Below are positions 29,895 to 38,947 of a stretch of DNA of 64,000 bases, one piece after another. Source of the stretch: Anaerolinea sp. GTDB taxonomy: Bacteria > Chloroflexota > Anaerolineae > Anaerolineales > Anaerolineaceae. How positions within the stretch are numbered: position 1 is the stretch's first letter; each line of letters begins with the position of its first letter. The notes under the pieces are model-generated. The model saw only the letters and a program-made list of their open reading frames with translations. It had not been told where the DNA came from and made no database searches. The stretch lies in the NCBI GenBank assembly GCA_020725865.1, contig DYEC01000001.1:186001-250000 (forward strand), written 5' to 3'. Made by a program: the position numbers and the translations under genes.

Positions 29895-30106
29895 ACGATT
29901 TGCGTAGTTCGGCCGCTTCTTCTTTCTACGAGGAAGAACCAACGGAAAATGAAGAATTGCTTGAAAAAGAACGTCGCCGTCAGCGAGGCCCATTTTTGGG
30001 CATGACCGCCGCACAGCGATTTGTTCTTGTTCTGTTGCTGCTCATGATGACCTGTGTATTGGGCACTTTTTGTTTGCTTGTAACCGAAAAAATGGTCCTG
30101 TTTTAA
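29888..30106 (+). CDS. Small single-span membrane protein
   Basis: This 72-residue protein has a charged N-terminal half ([16 protein letters not shown]) and one hydrophobic helix (about residues 44-65). GGAGG precedes the ATG within the birA end. It overlaps birA upstream and gyrA (antiparallel) by four bases downstream. No family is recognised; it may anchor or regulate a membrane complex. Confidence 0.65.
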
Positions 30107-32574
30107 CGTCCGCTATCCTTTCCACTCTCTTGCTGATCAGCCGCAGAAATGCGCGCCAGAGAAGCAACGCTGTCCCCTTTTGCCAGATCCATAAAATGAA
30201 TGCCGCGTGTGGTACGCCCGGTTGGGCTTATTGTTTTTACCTTCTGACGTAAAACCATGCCATTGGCAGAAATCACCGTAATCTCATCTTCCTCCTGAAC
30301 CACACGCGCCACCGCAATTTCCCCAATCTTGGGCAGGTTCTTTTGATCAATTGTTGCTACACCACCAGTTGCTCTGCCTTTGATTGGATATTCGCTCAAA
30401 GCGGTACGCTTGGCAAAGCCCTGAGTTGTGACCACCAGCAAATAACCTTCCGGCTCAACAACTTCCATTGCCGCCACACGATCCCCTTTTGCCAATCTAA
30501 TACCGGTCACTCCGGCTGCCTGGCGTCCCATCGAACGCACTTCATCCTCTGATATCCGTAAAGCCTGACCCTTTGCAGTAACCAGAACAATCTCATCTTT
30601 TCCAGTGGTAAGACGGACCCAACCAAGCTCATCACCTTCTTCCAGAGTGATGGCAACCAAACCGGCTGAACGTACGCTTATGAATTCTTCCAGCGCAACC
30701 CGTTTGATGCGTCCGTTTATGGTTGCCATTGTACAATATGATGCCGCCTCAAAATCCGGCACTGCCACCGCCGCAGTAATGCGTTCACCCTGATCCAGCG
30801 AAAGCAAATTGGTGATTGGGATACCACGATCTGAGCGATTTGCATCCGGTATCTGATACACTTTCTCGGAGTACACCTTTCCACGGTCGGAGAAGAACAG
30901 TAACGTATCCAGTGTGCGAGCGTGGGTGAGCATGAGAACCTCATCCTCCTCGCGCACGGTTTGTCCCATTACGCCGCGCCGCCCGCGTGCGGTGGTTCGG
31001 TAAGCATTCAATCCAACTCGCTTGATGTAACCACGTTGGGTAAAGCTGATAAGAACATCCTCATCTGCAACTAAATCAGCCTCGGTAAAATCTTCTCGAG
31101 CCTCTATCGCTATGGTTGTGCGGCGAGAATCACTATACTTCTGACTCAATTTCTGTAAATCTTCGCGAATCACACCCAATATCTTATGTGAATGGCTGAG
31201 TAAATCCTCCAGATACGCAATGCGCGCCAGCACCTCACGTTGCTCGTCCTCAATCTTTTGCCGCTCAAGCGCAGCCAGACGACGCAGCTGTAAGTCTAAA
31301 ATCGCCTGCGCCTGAATCTCGGTCAGCTTGAAGCGCTTCATAAGGCGCTCTCGCGCCTGTTCGGCATCTGGCGATTGGCGGATCGTCTGGATCACCTCGT
31401 CCAGATTCGCCAGTGCAATCATCAAACCTTCCAAAATATGCGCCCGGTGGCGTGCTTTTTCCAGCTCATACTGCGAGCGGCGGGTGATCACCTGAATGCG
31501 ATGATCAACAAAGATTTGCAAGGCGCGCTTGAGCGGGAGCAACCGCGGCTCACCCTCCACCAGCGCCAGCATGTGAACACCAAAGGTAGATTGCAGGGGT
31601 GTAAATTTATATAACTGATTCAAGACTTGGAGCGCCTGCGCTCCCTTTTTTAATTCGATCACAATGCGCATCCCATGCCGGTCGGATTCATCTCGTAGGT
31701 CGCTGATCGCGTCCAGCTTTCCTTCCCGCACCAGTTCGGCAATCCGCTCAATCAAACTGGTTTTATTAACCTGATAGGGTATTTCGGTGACAATAATGGC
31801 TGCCCTGCCTGAGCGCAGTTCCTTGATTTCTGCTCTTCCCCGCACCACCAGCCGTCCGCGTCCATTGGCATAAGCCTGCAGGATGCCTTCCTGACCGACA
31901 ATTACACCACCCGTTGGAAAATCCGGGCCGGGAACAAATTGCATCAAATCCTCAACTGTAACATCATCTAATTGATCATAGTGATCAATCAAGTAACAAA
32001 GGGCATCACTCAATTCTCGCAGGTTATGGGGCGGAATGTTTGTTGCCATGCCCACTGCAATACCCGATGAACCGTTCAGCAACAGATTAGGTAATCGGGC
32101 AGGCAACACTAGTGGTTCTTTCAGTGAAGCATCAAAGTTATCAACGAAATCAACGGTATCTTTATCAATATCTGCCAACATTTCTTCTGCCAGCTCATTC
32201 AAGCGTGCTTCGGTATAACGCATCGCTGCCGGGGCATCGCCGTCAATCGAGCCAAAATTACCCTGCCCGTCAACCAGTACGTAGCGCATTGAAAAATTTT
32301 GTGCCATGCGCGCCATCGCATCATAAACTGCCATATCTCCATGAGGATGATATTTACCCAACACCTCGCCAACAATGCGAGCAGACTTTTTGTAGGGTGA
32401 ATCTGCACGCAGTCCCATGTCATGCATGGCGTACAGGATGCGACGATGGACTGGTTTCAAGCCATCCCGCGCATCTGGCAGGGCGCGGGCAACAATCACG
32501 CTCATTGCGTAATCCAGATATGCCGAGCGCATCTGATGATCAATATCCACAGAATGGACAGTGCCGATTTCCAT
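30103..32574 (-). CDS. gyrA: DNA gyrase subunit A
   Basis: This 823-residue type II topoisomerase breakage-reunion subunit has [15 protein letters not shown] near residue 31, the QRDR segment [10 protein letters not shown], and the catalytic Tyr in A-A-M-R-Y-T. A coiled-coil gate follows and then a six-bladed C-terminal DNA-wrapping domain with a GyrA-box-like R-G-R-R-G-V-M-G. The position of E. coli Ser83 is Met (residue 81). AGGA precedes the ATG. A TATAAT lies at 32636-32631. ParC is the alternative, but the GyrA-box-like element favours GyrA. Confidence 0.95.
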
Positions 32575-32679: not shown

Positions 32680-33240
32680 GCGTAGTGGACCCTAAAAACC
32701 GGACATCTTGCAACTGCGGCGACAGCCGTATGGGTATTGCATCAATCGCGAACGGGTGTAACGTCTGGCGCGGCATTAGGACTGCTGAGACCGGTCAAAC
32801 AGTGGAAAATACGCACCACGAACAGCGTTCACCTTTTCCGTCGTTATGAAAACCTGATCAAACTTCAACAGGCTGTTCGCCCAGATCTGATTTGGGTCAG
32901 CGATATTACAGATATCCGATTGAGGGATGAATTTATGTATCTGGCAGTTGTTCTGGACATATTCACTCATGCACCCCGCACGGGGCGCGCTCAGTGCAGG
33001 GGGAACCTGAGCTGTTCATCCGATCAGCAATTGAGTCTTGGAGTGCTGGAGACGGCTTTGCAGGAGCGTGTTCCTGAGATCTGCCACAGCGGACAGGGTG
33101 TCCAGTGCGCCAGCGGTGAGTACATCTATTTACTTAAGTCTTACCAGGTGCAAATCAGCGTGGCGGCGGTGAGCAAGGCAGAAGAAAACGGCTACGCCGA
33201 GCGGTTCATGTTCGTTCAATCTCTTGCTTGTTTTTCAACA
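32680..33240 (+). mobile_element. Degenerate IS3-family element remnant
   Basis: A stretch beginning near TGGACCC...CCGGACA, which resembles an IS3-type end, carries broken pieces of an OrfB integrase-type transposase. The right end is not identifiable. It lies between the gyrA promoter and the next gene cluster, the only stretch over 300 bases without an intact gene apart from the T-box. Confidence 0.75.
32711..33210 (+). pseudogene. IS3-family transposase (OrfB), broken
   Basis: A HTH_21-like piece (R-R-Q-P-Y-G-Y) in one frame is separated by a frameshift and stops from the catalytic core in another frame: L-L-R-P-V-K-Q-W, D-L-I-W-V-S-D-I-T, Y-L-A-V-V-L-D-I-F-T, H-S-G-Q-G-V-Q-C, E-N-G-Y-A-E-R-F. 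The first Asp and the final Glu of the DDE triad are present, but the second Asp is replaced by Gly in H-S-G-Q-G. There is also a short insertion after D-I-F-T, and the C-terminus is lost. It cannot be an active transposase. Confidence 0.85.
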
Positions 33241-33323
33241 CTCTCGATTATATTTATACAGAGTTTCTCTTATTTTACGAAAAACCCCGGGAGGAAGAAG
33301 GGCGCTGCAACGCTCTGGAATAT

Positions 33324-33356
33324 GTCAAAAATCACCACGAAGCGGTGATTTTTGAC
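33324..33356. terminator. Perfect 13-bp inverted repeat, terminator-like
   Basis: GTCAAAAATCACC and GGTGATTTTTGAC pair perfectly around a seven-base loop. It lies at the end of the transposase remnant and is either a terminator or a leftover of the element. Confidence 0.55.
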
Positions 33357-33507: not shown

Positions 33508-35433
33508 TTAGCTTTTCGCCAACGGCAATACAACTGTAAAAGTAGAACCCTTACCGACGGTTGAGTCTACCCAGACTCTGCCGCCGTGATTCTCAACGAT
33601 CGTCTTTACGATTGCCAGCCCTAAGCCAGTTCCCGGTGTACCTCTGGCAAGATTACTCCCACGGAAAAATTTATCAAAGACATATGGCAAATCAGATGCC
33701 GGTATACCAATACCATTATCCTGAAATTGGAGAATAACCTGCTCCTCTTCCACATCTCCGAGTATGGTAATGGTTCCATTGTCGGGTGTATATTTTATGG
33801 CGTTGTCCAGCAGATTGTCAATTACCTGCCGCATTTGTACCGGGTTTGCCAGAACAGTCGGTGAACCGTTTGAAAATTCAATTTCGACTCGGATGTTCTT
33901 ATGTCTTAATTGTGTAATCATCCCATCGACAGAATAATGGATGAGTTTGTCTAATTGAACATTTTCGCGTTGGGTATCGAGGCCGGCTTCAATTCTGCCG
34001 AGATTCAACATTTCGTTGACCAGAGAAGTAATGTTTTGAACACTGGTCTGAACACGCTGGATATATTCTCGCTGAGTCTCATTGATTGAGCCAACGCGCT
34101 CAATCAGCTCGATGTAGCCCATGATTGCTGTTAACGGTGAACGCAAGTCGTGTGAAATTGCTGAAACGAAATCACTTTTGATACGATCAATCTTTTTCAG
34201 ATAGGTAATGTCGTGCATGGAGATTGCCAGGCCGATGCCGGGGATCTCGGATACCCAACAATCGAATACTCGACCGTCTTCGGTGGTCAGCTCACTGTGC
34301 GCAGAGATGTCTTCACTCAAGTGGGTAATCAAGCTGACCAGATCAGCGTGGCGGATCACATCTGACAGTTTCTTTCCAGTGGCTGATTGCTCACCAAGCT
34401 GCAAGATGTTCCGGGCTGCCTGATTAACCAGAATAACTTTATGCTCTTTATCCAGAACAACAACACCATCCTGTATCTGAGTCAGGATACTTTCCAGGCG
34501 CTGACGTTCCTGATTTGTGTTGGAATACAGACGGGCATTGTCTACTGCAATCACGGCGAATTCGGCGATAGCGGAAAGCAGTTTGACATCTCTTTCCTTG
34601 AATGGCAATCGTTTCAAGCGGTTATCAACGCCGAGTACACCAAACACACGCCCGTGGATTTGCAAAGGTACGTAAATTAAACTGTGAACCAGATAGGCGG
34701 TTTTAATCTTTTGTGGGGTATTTTCATCAAGCAGAAAAGGCTGACCAGTTTGTATGACCTGGCTTACCAGACTATCCTTAATAGGCAAGCGGAAGGTGCG
34801 AATGAATTCATCCTGGAAATTGCGCGCCGCGCGCATGTAAAGCTCGCCAGTTTCCTCATCAATCAATAGCAGGCTGCCTTCTTCGGCGCCTGTTAGTTCG
34901 ACGGCGGCAGAGACGATTGCCGAGAAGACACCATCCAGATCCAGAGAACTGGTGATAGTTCTTCCCAAAGCGGCGATGGTTTCCAGCTCATCTACCCGGC
35001 GCTGCAGACTCGCTGTAGCGCGCTTGGCTTCGGTTAAGACCCATGTTTTTCGCTGGATGGCTTTTTCCAGACAATGCTGGACTGACCGGGTGACCTCATC
35101 TGCCCGCAATGGCAAGCACAAATAATCACTCACGCCCACGCGCATGGCTTTTTTGAGCAATTCCGGTGTGTCATTTTCGACAAAAAGAATGATGGGCGCT
35201 GTAGGAAAGCGGCGCACCAGCTCTGCTGCAAATTCTATTCCGCTGCTATCGATTAATCGTTCGCTGATGATAAAAAGATTGGGAGTGACGGTTTCAACTG
35301 CTTCCAGTGCCTGAGCACGGTCCTGGCATACTCTTACAATGTAATCACCGGTAGCCAGAACGCGCTCCACAAGAAACCGTACCTGCGGGTCTGAGATGAC
35401 AAGAATGATTTGATCTTTCGGAATAGAGTACAT
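33508..35433 (-). CDS. Sensor histidine kinase with pseudo-receiver, GAF and PAS domains
   Basis: This 641-residue soluble protein has a receiver-like domain (~8-125), GAF (~165-310), PAS (~320-400), HisKA with the phospho-acceptor His in A-I-S-H-D-L-R-S-P-L, and an HATPase with D-N-A-I-K-Y, D-N-G-I-G-I and G-T-G-L-G-L-A-I. The receiver has Ser57 where the phospho-accepting Asp should be (I-I-S-E-R), so it cannot be phosphorylated normally. The kinase core looks active. The ATG at 35433 follows GAGG. It starts 21 bases after the neighbouring kinase-like gene and is co-transcribed. Confidence 0.9.
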   Translation of the reverse strand: MYSIPKDQIILVISDPQVRFLVERVLATGDYIVRVCQDRAQALEAVETVTPNLFIISERLIDSSGIEFAAELVRRFPTAPIILFVENDTPELLKKAMRVGVSDYLCLPLRADEVTRSVQHCLEKAIQRKTWVLTEAKRATASLQRRVDELETIAALGRTITSSLDLDGVFSAIVSAAVELTGAEEGSLLLIDEETGELYMRAARNFQDEFIRTFRLPIKDSLVSQVIQTGQPFLLDENTPQKIKTAYLVHSLIYVPLQIHGRVFGVLGVDNRLKRLPFKERDVKLLSAIAEFAVIAVDNARLYSNTNQERQRLESILTQIQDGVVVLDKEHKVILVNQAARNILQLGEQSATGKKLSDVIRHADLVSLITHLSEDISAHSELTTEDGRVFDCWVSEIPGIGLAISMHDITYLKKIDRIKSDFVSAISHDLRSPLTAIMGYIELIERVGSINETQREYIQRVQTSVQNITSLVNEMLNLGRIEAGLDTQRENVQLDKLIHYSVDGMITQLRHKNIRVEIEFSNGSPTVLANPVQMRQVIDNLLDNAIKYTPDNGTITILGDVEEEQVILQFQDNGIGIPASDLPYVFDKFFRGSNLARGTPGTGLGLAIVKTIVENHGGRVWVDSTVGKGSTFTVVLPLAKS

Positions 35434-35454
35434 TTGCAAGCCTCAATAAAGTGA

Positions 35455-37104
35455 TCAGGACGGCGCAAATGGAAGTGTAAAATGAAAACGTGCGCCCTCG
35501 CCGGGTTTGCTTTCCACCCACATTTTACCTTTATAGCTGCTAATAATCTCCCTTGCTGTGCCAAGGCTGATTCCCAGACCGCCAAATCTGCGTGGTTCGG
35601 TGCGTTTCTGATTGGCTTCAAAAATTTTATCCAGGCGAGAGGCTTCAATGCCGGGACCGCTATCCTGAACCACAATATGGGCTGTCTGATTGATGGTTTT
35701 TTCCAGAGTAACAGTGATCCTTCCTCCAGGGTGGCAGAACTTGACTGCATTGCTCAGCAGAGCAGCCAACACTTGTCCAATCTGTCCAGCATCAGCAATT
35801 ACAAAGACCGGTTCTGCCGGAACCTCTGCACTTATTATAATCCGATCTGTTTGTGCATAGGGCAGAAATTGATTGACTGCTTTTTGAATGACCTCATTTA
35901 GCTTTGCCGCCAAGGGACCGGGTTGAATTTGAGTAGCTGGTGGAGGCTGAATGGATTGGGTGATCTGGTTGAGCTTGTAAAGTTCATCTTGAACAATTGC
36001 CAGAAATTGACGCTGTGGACCGGTCCAGCGCGCGGTAAACTCTCTGATCAATTTTTCCAGAGAGGTGATAGCATTTTTTAATGGCGTATTGAGTTCCTTT
36101 TTAAGTTGTTCTAACATTTCTGCGCTTACTTTTTCGCCCAGCTGTGCCTGCTCTGAAGCATATTGTAAAAGTCGGGCGCGGCTCTCAACAGCGCGAAACA
36201 GACTGGCATTCACCAGTGAGATAGCAGCATAATCTGCAGCGGCTTCAAGCAACCGTTGTTCGCTGGTTCCAAATTGCAGTGGCTGTCTCCGCATCATGCT
36301 CAACAGACCAATGACCTGATTTTGTGCTTTGACCGGTACGATGAGCGCCGATTGACCAAGCGATGCGATTTTGAAACGCTTAAGCGCGTCACCGAAGATT
36401 GAAAGTGGCTCGCCTGACATGGCAATTAGCGAACTGATCCCGTCATCCCAGGGCAAATTTAATCGCTCCTCAAGTGATGCAGGAAGGTTACGGTACGCAA
36501 CCAGGTTGAACGATTTGGAAGTTTCATCGCGAAGCAGTAACCAACCCAGATCAGCCTGAGTGATCTGGACTGCGCCATCCAGTATTTTTTCAAAGAGCAA
36601 TTGTTGGTTTGTGGTTGAGGTGACCGCTTTACCAAGCGACAGAATTGTGGTTAATTCGCGCACCCGCGCCTGAAGCTCCTGATTGGTTTGCTCCAGTTGA
36701 CGGGCAAGGCGGTCACGTTCGCGGCGCGCATGAACCTGTTTAAGTGCGCGCTCTACTACATTGATGATCTCAGCCTCGCGCACAGGCCAGAACAGGTAAT
36801 CGCTTGCTCCCAGCCGAAAGGCATCAATGATGTTACTCTCTTTTCCCTTTTGTGCCAGGATGATGACAGGGCTTTCAATGTTTTGTGAGTTGAGCGCTAC
36901 CAGCAGGTCTTTGGCACTCAAACCGGGCAAAGCGATGTTCACAATGATAACGTCTGGCATGACCTGAATGATTTTGGGAATAGCGGCACCGGCATCTTCG
37001 ATTACCAGAGGTTGATAACCGGCGGCTTGCAACGCCTGATGGGCGATGAAATCTGATATGAGGGGATCATTTTCAATAATGAGAATTCGATCACTTGCTG
37101 CCAT
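35455..37104 (-). CDS. Pseudo-histidine kinase with pseudo-receiver and GAF domains
   Basis: This 549-residue protein has a receiver-like domain (~5-120) with Asn56 in place of the phospho-accepting Asp (I-I-V-N-I-A-L-P-G), then a coiled coil, a GAF domain (~165-300), and a HisKA-like helix pair. There the expected H-E-L-x-T-P reads K-E-L-N-T-P, so Lys336 replaces the phospho-His. An HATPase follows with intact L-S-N-A-V-K-F, D-S-G-P-G-I and G-G-L-G-I-S. It may bind ATP but cannot autophosphorylate in the usual way. The ATG at 37104 was chosen because the receiver starts there and a -10 box lies ten bases upstream. Confidence 0.88.
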   Translation of the reverse strand: MAASDRILIIENDPLISDFIAHQALQAAGYQPLVIEDAGAAIPKIIQVMPDVIIVNIALPGLSAKDLLVALNSQNIESPVIILAQKGKESNIIDAFRLGASDYLFWPVREAEIINVVERALKQVHARRERDRLARQLEQTNQELQARVRELTTILSLGKAVTSTTNQQLLFEKILDGAVQITQADLGWLLLRDETSKSFNLVAYRNLPASLEERLNLPWDDGISSLIAMSGEPLSIFGDALKRFKIASLGQSALIVPVKAQNQVIGLLSMMRRQPLQFGTSEQRLLEAAADYAAISLVNASLFRAVESRARLLQYASEQAQLGEKVSAEMLEQLKKELNTPLKNAITSLEKLIREFTARWTGPQRQFLAIVQDELYKLNQITQSIQPPPATQIQPGPLAAKLNEVIQKAVNQFLPYAQTDRIIISAEVPAEPVFVIADAGQIGQVLAALLSNAVKFCHPGGRITVTLEKTINQTAHIVVQDSGPGIEASRLDKIFEANQKRTEPRRFGGLGISLGTAREIISSYKGKMWVESKPGEGARFHFTLPFAPS

Positions 37105-37114
37105 ATGTACAATA

Positions 37115-37143
37115 ATCATAGCACGGATAAGGAAAATTGGAAA
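37115..37143 (-). promoter_or_regulatory. Promoter of the kinase pair, near-leaderless
   Basis: TTTCCA (37143-37138), a 17-base spacer ending in TG-C, and TATGAT (37120-37115) on the minus strand, ten bases before the ATG at 37104. No ribosome-binding site is present. Confidence 0.6.
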
Positions 37144-37318
37144 GAAAACCTGAACCAAGCCTCAAACTCATGCAAACCTTACAATTTCATTTCATTTTTA
37201 TCAAAGTGTAGAATTAAAAAAAACTATGTTAATATAATTTTGGAATGGTGATCCATTAAAGCAATAAGGGAGGTATTTGGGGTGGGAAATTCCGGGGTGT
37301 TATAGGAGGATTTGCAAT

Positions 37319-38947
37319 ATGAGGGGACAACTTCATTCAATTCTAAAGAAACCTCCGCAGAAGTTCAGATGGGTTGGGATATCGTTTTTATTTCTTGTCT
37401 ATCTTTTGACCAATTTATTCCGAGTTGGGGGTTATGAGTTCATTACTAACCTAAATAATATTCTGCCTATTTTAGTGGCATTTGTCCTGTTGATTATTAC
37501 ACTTTTGCTATTCCATCGAGTACCGGCGGGACCTAATCGCGGATTATGGTTTGGACTGGCTATTGGTTGGGGGTTATGGTTGATTGCGGAGATATGGTGG
37601 TTCACTGCTGATATTTTACTTCAGGAATTGCCTTTCCCTTCCGGGGCAGATTTTTTCTGGGTAGCCGCTTACATTCCGATCATTGCGGCGCTTGCGATGC
37701 GAAGCTCCTCGCTTCCCAAAAGTCTTTCCCCGCATCAACAAATTTCGATATGGATTTTGGGGCTAGTGTATACAGGTATCACTGGATTTTTTGTCTTGCG
37801 ACCTGCAGTGGCGAATTTCGTTTCAGATACCATGTTGGGAGGCTTTGTTAGCGTTTTTTATCCATTAGCCGATATTACCCTATTTGCATTGAGTTTGCGG
37901 ATATTGTTTTCCTATCGTCAGGGACTATACGGGCGTGCCTGGACATGGATTTCTGCGGGCTTTGCGCTGTTTGCTGTCTCTGACTTATTGTTTGGATACA
38001 CAGTCAATGCGGGACTGTATTATCCGGAGGGTGAGCTTAATTTGATTAGTACGGTTGGAGTGGATGTCACCTACAGTGCCAGTTATTTTCTTTGTCTGGT
38101 GGGTGTGGCTCAGGTCCAGACTTTGCAGGTTGGCTATCGCCAATTAGAAGGTACTGTGCCCATTTTAGATATCCTTCCAAACGCACATGTCTTTTTGCTT
38201 ACTAAAGATGACTGTACTATCACAATGGTTAGCGCCAATTATGCACAAATATTTCCGTTAGATATACAAGATATAAAGGGAAAGACAGTCGCTGAAGCTC
38301 TTGGGACTTTGCCAGGTGATGCCGATGTACTGATCAAGGATATTAAGACCGTTAAAACGATAAATGGACGACCTTTGAATGTAAAAACCCGATATGGGGT
38401 ACAACAAGCCCTTGTTTCCGGAATGTCCGTTGAAGGTCCGGAAGGGAAAGATTTTGGAGGGATGGCGCTGCTTCTTTGGATATTTTCAGAGAACTATGCG
38501 CTGGATGAGATCTTGACAGATTATGAAAAGTGGGTGGTGCGTATATTGTTGAGCAAAACGGGTCTAAAGGAGAGAGAAGAGCTTGAGATTAAGCGCTTTC
38601 TTTCAAATTACTACACAGGATATCTGACAGCTTTATACAATCGCGTTCTTGTGGAGGGAGGAGGAATCATGGTGGATGCGTTTTTGGCAGAATTGCGAAC
38701 TGTTGCCCAGAGGCAGGGATGGCGAGTTGATTTTATGACGGATTCCTTTCTGGATATTGATGCGCTGACCTTGGCGCAAACTAGGGAATGCCTGCCTGCT
38801 TTGTTGAACACTGCCAAAAACTTTACTGCCAGAGTCATTGATCCTGTAACCACTGAGATGATTGTTGATGGTATCCGTGCAAAATATAGCGATATGATTT
38901 TAAAGAATGTCTCATATTATGAGACGGCAAAAGAGACACATCCTTGA
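37319..38947 (+). CDS. Multi-span membrane sensor-like protein with PAS-like domain
   Basis: This 542-residue protein has about eight or nine hydrophobic segments in the first ~285 residues. A PAS-like domain follows (~295-385, with I-L-P-N-A-H-V-F-L-L-T-K-D-D and V-S-A-N-Y-A-Q-I-F), then a helical C-terminal part with no kinase, cyclase or regulator motif. It is divergent from the two kinase-like genes and may pass a membrane or redox/ligand signal to them. The ATG at 37319 was chosen because AGGAGGA lies eight bases upstream. TATAAT occurs at ~37232. Confidence 0.75.
   Translation: MRGQLHSILKKPPQKFRWVGISFLFLVYLLTNLFRVGGYEFITNLNNILPILVAFVLLIITLLLFHRVPAGPNRGLWFGLAIGWGLWLIAEIWWFTADILLQELPFPSGADFFWVAAYIPIIAALAMRSSSLPKSLSPHQQISIWILGLVYTGITGFFVLRPAVANFVSDTMLGGFVSVFYPLADITLFALSLRILFSYRQGLYGRAWTWISAGFALFAVSDLLFGYTVNAGLYYPEGELNLISTVGVDVTYSASYFLCLVGVAQVQTLQVGYRQLEGTVPILDILPNAHVFLLTKDDCTITMVSANYAQIFPLDIQDIKGKTVAEALGTLPGDADVLIKDIKTVKTINGRPLNVKTRYGVQQALVSGMSVEGPEGKDFGGMALLLWIFSENYALDEILTDYEKWVVRILLSKTGLKEREELEIKRFLSNYYTGYLTALYNRVLVEGGGIMVDAFLAELRTVAQRQGWRVDFMTDSFLDIDALTLAQTRECLPALLNTAKNFTARVIDPVTTEMIVDGIRAKYSDMILKNVSYYETAKETHP

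Follow-up and report, generated by a model that had tools for sequence, protein, structure and literature searches.

A 2025 review puts HisKA domains without the histidine at 0.9% and receiver domains without the aspartate at 2.0%, and calls the working of bacterial pseudo-receivers a mystery (PMC12632262). The same review describes ShkA and CikA, in which a pseudo-receiver inhibits autophosphorylation without aspartate phosphorylation. DivL of Caulobacter is, according to PMC4211667, a histidine kinase fold without the phospho-histidine that has been retained and repurposed, and LvrB appears in PMC13269768 as the prototype Rec-controlled histidine kinase, whose N-terminal receiver drives the kinase through a helix. 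Here we describe two adjacent genes, A and B, in a 64,000-nucleotide stretch of Anaerolinea sp. DNA (contig DYEC01000001.1, positions 186,001 to 250,000; the whole stretch is called the window), which encode kinase-like proteins with dead receivers, and we follow the pair through related genomes.

Gene A (35455..37104, within an open reading frame at 35455-37158; both genes and all their parts lie on the minus strand) encodes 549 amino acids from the ATG of MAASD. Pfam and an AlphaFold model divide the protein into a pseudo-receiver, a GAF domain, a DHp-like helical hairpin without histidine and a HATPase_c domain. Translation of A probably begins not at the first TTG of the frame but at this ATG, which lies 10 nt after TGCTATGAT (37115..37123, minus strand), an extended −10-like element picked out by eye that may be part of a promoter; a similar element is visible by eye before A in many relatives. 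Pfam reports Response_reg (50.6 bits, cut-off 30.2), GAF and HATPase_c (E-value 1.4e-23), with neither a PAS nor a HisKA match at E 0.01. In the pseudo-receiver (residues 4-125; 36730..37095) the active-site positions that read D,D/D/T/K in canonical receivers are E,N/N56/A/W106, with the Asn56 codon at 36937..36939, and only the first, a Glu, is still acidic. The GAF domain (residues 167-299; 36208..36606) is seen by Pfam and in the model. Within the hairpin (residues 321-386; 35947..36144) the motif KELNTP places Lys336 (codon 36097..36099) at the phospho-histidine position, and the catalytic ATP-binding (CA) domain (residues 399-549; 35458..35910) has its N, G1 and G2 boxes in place (N452, DSGPG 481 and GGLG 508).

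Gene B (33508..35433, open reading frame 33508-35439) encodes 641 amino acids from the ATG of MYSIP. Its receiver (residues 8-121; 35071..35412) still scores 47.9 bits against the Response_reg cut-off of 30.2, and has decayed to I,S/S57/V/L at the active-site positions, the Ser57 codon lying at 35263..35265. A GAF domain (residues 164-298; 34540..34944) and a PAS domain (residues 317-414; 34192..34485; PAS_7) follow. The DHp and catalytic domains (residues 416-639; 33517..34188) are intact by sequence (HisKA 5.5e-19, HATPase_c 1.2e-32), with His428 (codon 34150..34152) in the motif HDLRSP. B falls below the curated NCBIfam equivalog cut-offs for PnpS (266.8 against 400), PhoR (253.3 against 334.2) and WalK (248.7 against 725).

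The preliminary description of this locus had named Asn56, Ser57 and Lys336 as replacements, the intact ATP boxes of A and the HDLRSP motif of B. Numbering from the two start codons, together with an alignment that unites 191 sequences of A and B, bears out each of these assignments: Asn56 of A shares a column with Ser57 of B, and Lys336 of A with His428 of B. The receivers are in fact more thoroughly inactivated than had been claimed, since five positions have changed in each. The histidines of A are residues 22, 125, 458, 476 and 541, none of them within the DHp helices, so a register shift is unable to rescue a phospho-histidine, and a hidden one is ruled out.

The AlphaFold model of A (mean pLDDT 87.9, pTM 0.54) comprises the receiver, a long helix (110-163), the GAF domain, the helical hairpin and the CA domain, and that of B has a mean pLDDT of 82.5 and a pTM of 0.41. 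Because both pTM values are low, the domain arrangement in the models is not trustworthy. Individual domains compare well with known structures: the receiver of A matches solved receivers with a best Z of about 22 and a root-mean-square deviation (rmsd) of 1.1-1.8 over 120-132 residues, and its DHp-CA part matches HK853 and DivL, which indicates that this fold is present. With Lys336 in place of the histidine, A is predicted to be a pseudo-histidine kinase.

Matches to A and B were sought in 61 genomes, the window's own and 60 relatives. A-like matches (E 1e-40 or better) occur in 40 of these and B-like matches (E 1e-60) in 51; many of the weaker B-like matches are other, longer kinases or cover the PAS-kinase part only. 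Forty regions were taken from this set, and a scan of the genome collection gave 321 confirmed relatives, of which 80 were kept; these are labelled Anaerolineae or Anaerolineales, carry names of members of these groups, or are labelled merely Chloroflexi or Chloroflexota, and 'Candidatus Aquidulcis' (L118) was left unplaced. Among the loci with a full-length pair are those of two cultured species, Levilinea saccharolytica (L106) and Bellilinea caldifistulae (L103). The resulting 120 loci were reduced to 104 once identical A (or B) sequences had been dropped, with A in 99, B in 92 and both in 87. As the 80 genome-collection loci were found through A, B-only cases are under-counted.

A and B are adjacent on the same strand, with A first, in 85 of the 87 loci holding both. 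The exceptions are L139, where the called frames overlap by 257 bases, and L086 (G038), where a third REC-GAF-kinase stands between A and B. In the latter (L086:2148-7586) all three consecutive REC-GAF-kinases have the histidine, and only the last, B, has a canonical receiver. Among the 12 A-only loci, seven have no B next door (L070, L071, L082, L083, L091, L098 and L117; in G014, B sits on another contig), three end in a B fragment and two cannot be judged. Four of the five B-only loci leave room to judge and have no adjacent A, one of these four carrying an A-like fragment of 73 amino acids; the fifth cannot be judged.

The two proteins have kept different domains. Mean pairwise identity was calculated for 24 loci of the window's clade, hand-picked after the tree described below had been seen and all with full-length A (13 from the window genome's family and 11 placed with them on the tree; 276 comparisons per domain), and for 28 loci with short A. 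In the first set A has identities of.60 in the receiver (REC),.61 in GAF,.26 in DHp and.29 in CA, and B has.35 in REC,.66 in GAF,.39 in PAS,.76 in DHp and.53 in CA. In the second set the values are.64,.60 and.30 for REC, GAF and the remaining DHp-aligned part of A, and.35,.56,.41,.71 and.52 for the five domains of B in the same order. This mirror image suggests that the receiver of A is a constrained pseudo-receiver and that of B a decaying relic. On this comparison the two dead receivers are not equivalent, one being conserved and the other drifting.

None of the 99 A proteins has a canonical receiver, two of them being not fully readable. At the aspartate position A has N in 51, D in 34, S in 10 and E in 3; Ala has replaced Thr in 85, and Trp stands at the Lys position in 59. 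The best-kept elements of its receiver are β1 (.78), β5 (.75) and α3 (.70), followed by α4 (.65) and by α1 and α5 (both.61). Six of the 92 B receivers are canonical (L086, L087, L088, L095, L096 and L099) and two B proteins lack a readable receiver, while the phospho-histidine is kept in 91.

The kinase half of A has fared differently. Only 53 of the 99 A proteins are full-length and the other 46 lack an aligned CA domain, three of these (L099, L157 and L166) being long open reading frames for other reasons; in the members of family f12 that were found, the short A genes are open frames. A histidine is absent from the phospho-histidine column in 39 of the 53 full-length proteins, where the residue found instead varies (Q in 10, K in 8, R in 5, N in 4, and others). 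It is present in 14, nine of which also keep the N-box Asn and the G1 Asp. One or the other of these ATP-site residues is absent, as aligned, in 23 of the 53, which indicates that ATP binding is not a common requirement. From these sequences, the lasting part of A is its pseudo-receiver and GAF domain, and its kinase half is dispensable.

Where it is retained, the kinase half of A is nonetheless constrained. Ratios of nonsynonymous to synonymous substitution rates (dN/dS) were obtained by NG86 for seven close pairs, which are not independent because sequences of L066, L137 and L142 are shared among three of them; the other pairs of the same run were either saturated in dS or of another A type. 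For DHp/CA the seven pairs give 0.07/0.07, 0.17/0.13, 0.12/0.15, 0.34/0.24, 0.22/0.16, 0.30/0.18 and 0.07/0.17, against 0-0.13 for REC and GAF. The kinase half is thus clearly higher in five pairs and about level in two, and it stays below 1 in every pair where a value is computable, a pattern that implies constraint, though less than on REC and GAF. In the pair L132/L135, in which A has the histidine, the values for A are 0.21 in GAF, 0.12 in DHp and 0.15 in CA.

Relatives in other orders indicate where the pair came from. These are REC-GAF-PAS-kinases with no A-like neighbour in the stretch read. Eight of them (L205-L209, L213, L215 and L216) have a canonical DD/D/T/K receiver and HDLR[ST]P, and a ninth (L212) has DN/D/T/K with HDLRAP; L210, L211 and L214 are other kinase types and were not counted. 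The pair therefore seems to derive from duplication of a Rec-controlled kinase, after which the two copies decayed in complementary fashion, and since the other-order relatives are canonical, the direction of change would be from canonical to dead. A tree of 83 pairs, which omits 21 of the 104 loci, was built by a quick search and rooted at the midpoint, and 25 of its 80 internal branches are weak. It requires at least nine changes between full-length and short A, and 15 for a three-state kinase label in which L067, L122 and L128 count as 'H' despite incomplete ATP boxes and a lost flanking motif. On the same tree the canonical or dead state of the B receiver changes twice and the B histidine once.

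The helix that joins receiver and GAF domain also differs between the two proteins. It is 41 residues long in all 97 A proteins measured, in two A-like proteins of family f60 and in eight of the nine single-gene relatives by script, and in the ninth by eye. In B it has 39 residues in 64 of 73 cases, none with a canonical receiver, and 41 in four, all canonical; lengths of 30 and 34 occur in two further canonical proteins, and 35 (once) and 26 (twice) in proteins with dead receivers. Shortening to 39 in B may have been one event. Exceptions aside, the pattern fits a B receiver that has been uncoupled from helix phase and an A receiver that is still coupled to it.

Given pseudo-receiver inhibition in ShkA and CikA and the receiver-helix drive of LvrB, we read A as a pseudo-receiver subunit that would gate B in a hetero-oligomer, after duplication and complementary decay, a proposal that we consider evenly poised between right and wrong. 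The ancestor would have been one Rec-controlled histidine kinase of REC-GAF-PAS-DHp-CA type. One copy, A, would have become a regulatory subunit whose pseudo-receiver works independently of phosphorylation and is linked to GAF by a helix of constant length, its kinase half losing the histidine, frequently the ATP site as well, and in many lineages CA altogether, presumably in that order. The other, B, would have retained the kinase with GAF and PAS while its receiver decayed. For the physical assembly, the direction of control and the target, we infer that the pseudo-receiver and GAF of A would join B through the homologous GAF domains and signalling helices, that A would gate autophosphorylation of B in response to a ligand or protein that A binds, and that B would phosphorylate a response regulator encoded elsewhere. 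The pseudokinase half of the window's A, with its predicted fold and ATP boxes, may add to the interface and would not be an essential part.

Several observations weigh against this proposal. Lone B (four loci with room to judge) and lone A (seven loci) occur. In 58 of 67 pairs the receiver-GAF helices of A and B are unequal in length by two residues, an offset ill suited to a heterodimer simply kept in register over its entire spine, and the canonical B helices of 30 and 34 residues mean that helix length and receiver state are not strictly coupled. In genome G048 it is B that lacks the histidine while A keeps it, and the N-box Asn is gone from both. Finally, the kinase partner in family f60 has Arg for the histidine (two loci), so that kinase output is not universal.

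The solitary genes and the helix offset would be expected if A and B formed independent homodimers that merely share an operon, B as an orphan kinase and A as a stand-alone pseudo-receiver/GAF scaffold or ligand sensor. We regard this as somewhat unlikely, because the two genes are so regularly adjacent where both occur, because two paralogues have decayed in complementary ways, and because loss of the kinase is tolerated repeatedly in A while B has almost always kept its histidine.

The preliminary description had proposed that the pseudokinase tunes the active kinase. One part of this stands, in that a predicted pseudokinase and an intact kinase form a conserved adjacent pair. The emphasis on the kinase half does not, because that half is dispensable, lacking CA in 46 of 99 proteins and showing 26-29% identity against 60-61% for REC and GAF, and because ATP residues are missing in 23 of 53 full-length A. 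The same observations bear on an allosteric pseudokinase of the DivL kind, in which the DHp-CA part of A would bind a phosphorylated regulator or the kinase core of B and ATP binding would tune B. The model of this part does match the DivL structure 4q20 (Foldseek E 6.1e-17; VIA Z 22.0, rmsd 4.7 over 202 residues), the window's A has its ATP boxes, and the kinase half has dN/dS below 1 wherever computable. Yet it is the least conserved part of A and is so often truncated or short of the N-box Asn or G1 Asp, and its replacement residue varies, whereas the Tyr of DivL is conserved in alpha-proteobacteria with one exception (PMC4211667); we judge this mechanism distinctly unlikely. That A is a redundant paralogue decaying without function, as its lost histidine, ATP boxes and CA domain and the four loci with B and no adjacent A (one with the 73-amino-acid fragment) might suggest, is highly improbable, given a receiver and GAF nearly as conserved as the GAF of B and with dN/dS of 0-0.13 in seven close pairs, a helix of constant length in 97 of 97, and short A genes that are open frames in the f12 members found.

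Two unusual variants of the pair deserve description. In G048 (L093:2414-5464), A keeps HELRAP while its N-box Asn is replaced by Lys; in B, Leu stands in place of the histidine and Asp in place of the N-box Asn, and Pfam gives neither a receiver nor a GAF match at 1e-5. This locus prompted the idea that at least one partner has to be a working kinase, which was dropped: the N-box Asn is lost in both proteins, and the locus has the longest branch on the tree. Nor do seven relatives in family f13 repeat the arrangement, five having both histidines (three of them the same loci as L131, L139 and L141), G068 a dead A and G063 a short A. In family f60 (L203:3896-6105 and L204:4107-6316) an A-like receiver-GAF protein keeps DD, Asp and Lys with Thr changed to Val, and its partner at both loci is a PAS-kinase of 338 amino acids with intact ATP boxes and Arg at the phospho-histidine position, which also contradicts the idea.

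In the window the pair is flanked by a GyrA/ParC-type gene (30103-32574, minus strand; Pfam and NCBIfam), by an integrase-core (rve) open reading frame of 203 amino acids beside B (32737-33348, plus strand; Pfam), possibly an insertion sequence remnant where the usual neighbourhood was broken, and by a 556-amino-acid frame facing A (37277-38947, plus strand) with membrane segments apparent by eye. The latter has no Pfam or NCBIfam match, and among the 120 related loci only the window's own copy matched it. Two profiles built from 16 sequences of the present analysis (E 1e-3) found no further receiver or kinase among the window's open reading frames, in agreement with the earlier remark that no ordinary response regulator lies nearby.

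In the relatives A frequently faces dnaJ, after which come genes for a trypsin-PDZ protease of HtrA type and for a member of baeRF family 10, as identified by Pfam in one example. Among the 83 loci that extend 4.5 kb or more upstream, one or more of these genes faces the pair in 51, all three are present in 27, and 32 have none. The trio lies outside the window, together on another contig of the window genome, where the 18 kb read around it yielded neither a kinase nor a receiver. According to PMC6514570, the catalytic Gln is retained in family 10, which might be a peptidyl hydrolase; a word search found neither 'dnaj' nor 'htra' in the main text of that paper. In family f9, dnaJ (L257 and L261; G044 and G057) stands beside an opposite-strand kinase frame of about 480 amino acids that matches only the PAS-kinase part of B.

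The promoter region of dnaJ carries a conserved 11-bp direct-repeat box. In the window genome it reads TCTTATRNAAYTCTWAY (L223:9978-9996; G000:C9), about 50 nt from dnaJ and upstream of a −35-like element TTGACT noted by eye, and a similar box precedes dnaJ in relatives. With a matrix from 49 dnaJ-upstream stretches, 42 of the 49 score above the best of 49 shuffled stretches (14.5), and the window genome's dnaJ, outside the training set, scores 23.7. A pattern search allowing one mismatch in nine genomes gave 28 matches against 19 for a reversed control, so many matches are due to chance. Eight of the 28 precede dnaJ and four, in four of the nine genomes, precede groES-groEL, with groES assigned as Cpn10 by Pfam in L226, read in L240 and L229, and inferred in L250 from a shared upstream gene and an antisense frame. 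Single matches precede HrcA, Hsp90 (htpG), FtsH, a Clp ATPase, trigger factor and an Fe/Mn superoxide dismutase (Pfam), the box being reversed relative to the gene before Hsp90, Clp, trigger factor and dismutase. It looks like a candidate activator site of a heat-shock regulon.

A role for the box as the pair's own operator was rejected. Among 20 dnaJ loci from 24 genomes (four gave no match), 15 belong to genomes in which the pair is absent at the thresholds applied, and seven of these 15 have the box at its usual place with a score of at least 12, as do three of the five from genomes with A. The box is therefore independent of the pair, and a link between pair and regulon is unproved. That the pair is a split two-subunit sensor, with a phosphorylation-independent pseudo-receiver subunit, reporting to a protein-quality-control regulon is a suggestion from gene neighbourhood and from the genes that carry the box, and one that we consider doubtful.

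A histidine-less kinase or an aspartate-less receiver alone is already known. In the titles and opening lines of abstracts covered by our searches on kinases and receivers, in a library short of most subscription papers, we found no description of the A-B pair, nor any report of a conserved pair with graded, repeated loss. At one end of the range seen within one orthologous pair stand a canonical receiver and an intact kinase; at the other, receiver and kinase are dead and the CA domain is gone. What survives is pseudo-receiver and GAF, and the protein that carries them has no kinase in many of the genomes.

As in LvrB, where a receiver controls DHp-CA through a signalling helix, both A and B place an N-terminal receiver before a kinase core, and their single-gene relatives have the same plan with GAF and PAS added. 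LvrB chains (8vc9) top the Foldseek list for A, with poor overall superposition (TM 0.26). The LvrB receiver is phosphorylated (D56), whereas the window's A and B lack this aspartate as an input, along with other active-site residues, and the work is apparently divided over two proteins. Chains of a dual-sensor histidine kinase (6oap, 6oaq and 6ob8) align with residues 1-306 of A, its receiver and GAF region (Z about 21, rmsd 11.6-12.5 over about 280 residues). The title of 6oaq, BeF3-bound, implies that this kinase is phospho-responsive, and the titles of these structures indicate no separate pseudo-receiver subunit. DivL has a conserved Tyr at the phospho-histidine position, multiple PAS domains before its kinase core (PMC4211667) and a DHp-CA part that senses a regulator; A has Lys in the window and a variable residue elsewhere, REC and GAF in place of PAS, and a CA domain that is often lost. 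In ShkA and CikA the pseudo-receiver is inside a hybrid kinase, whereas the conserved one here is carried by a predicted kinase-dead paralogue. A and B would be a system of two proteins that allows the influence of a pseudo-receiver on a kinase to be included or omitted, and a natural test of what 'dead' domains do.

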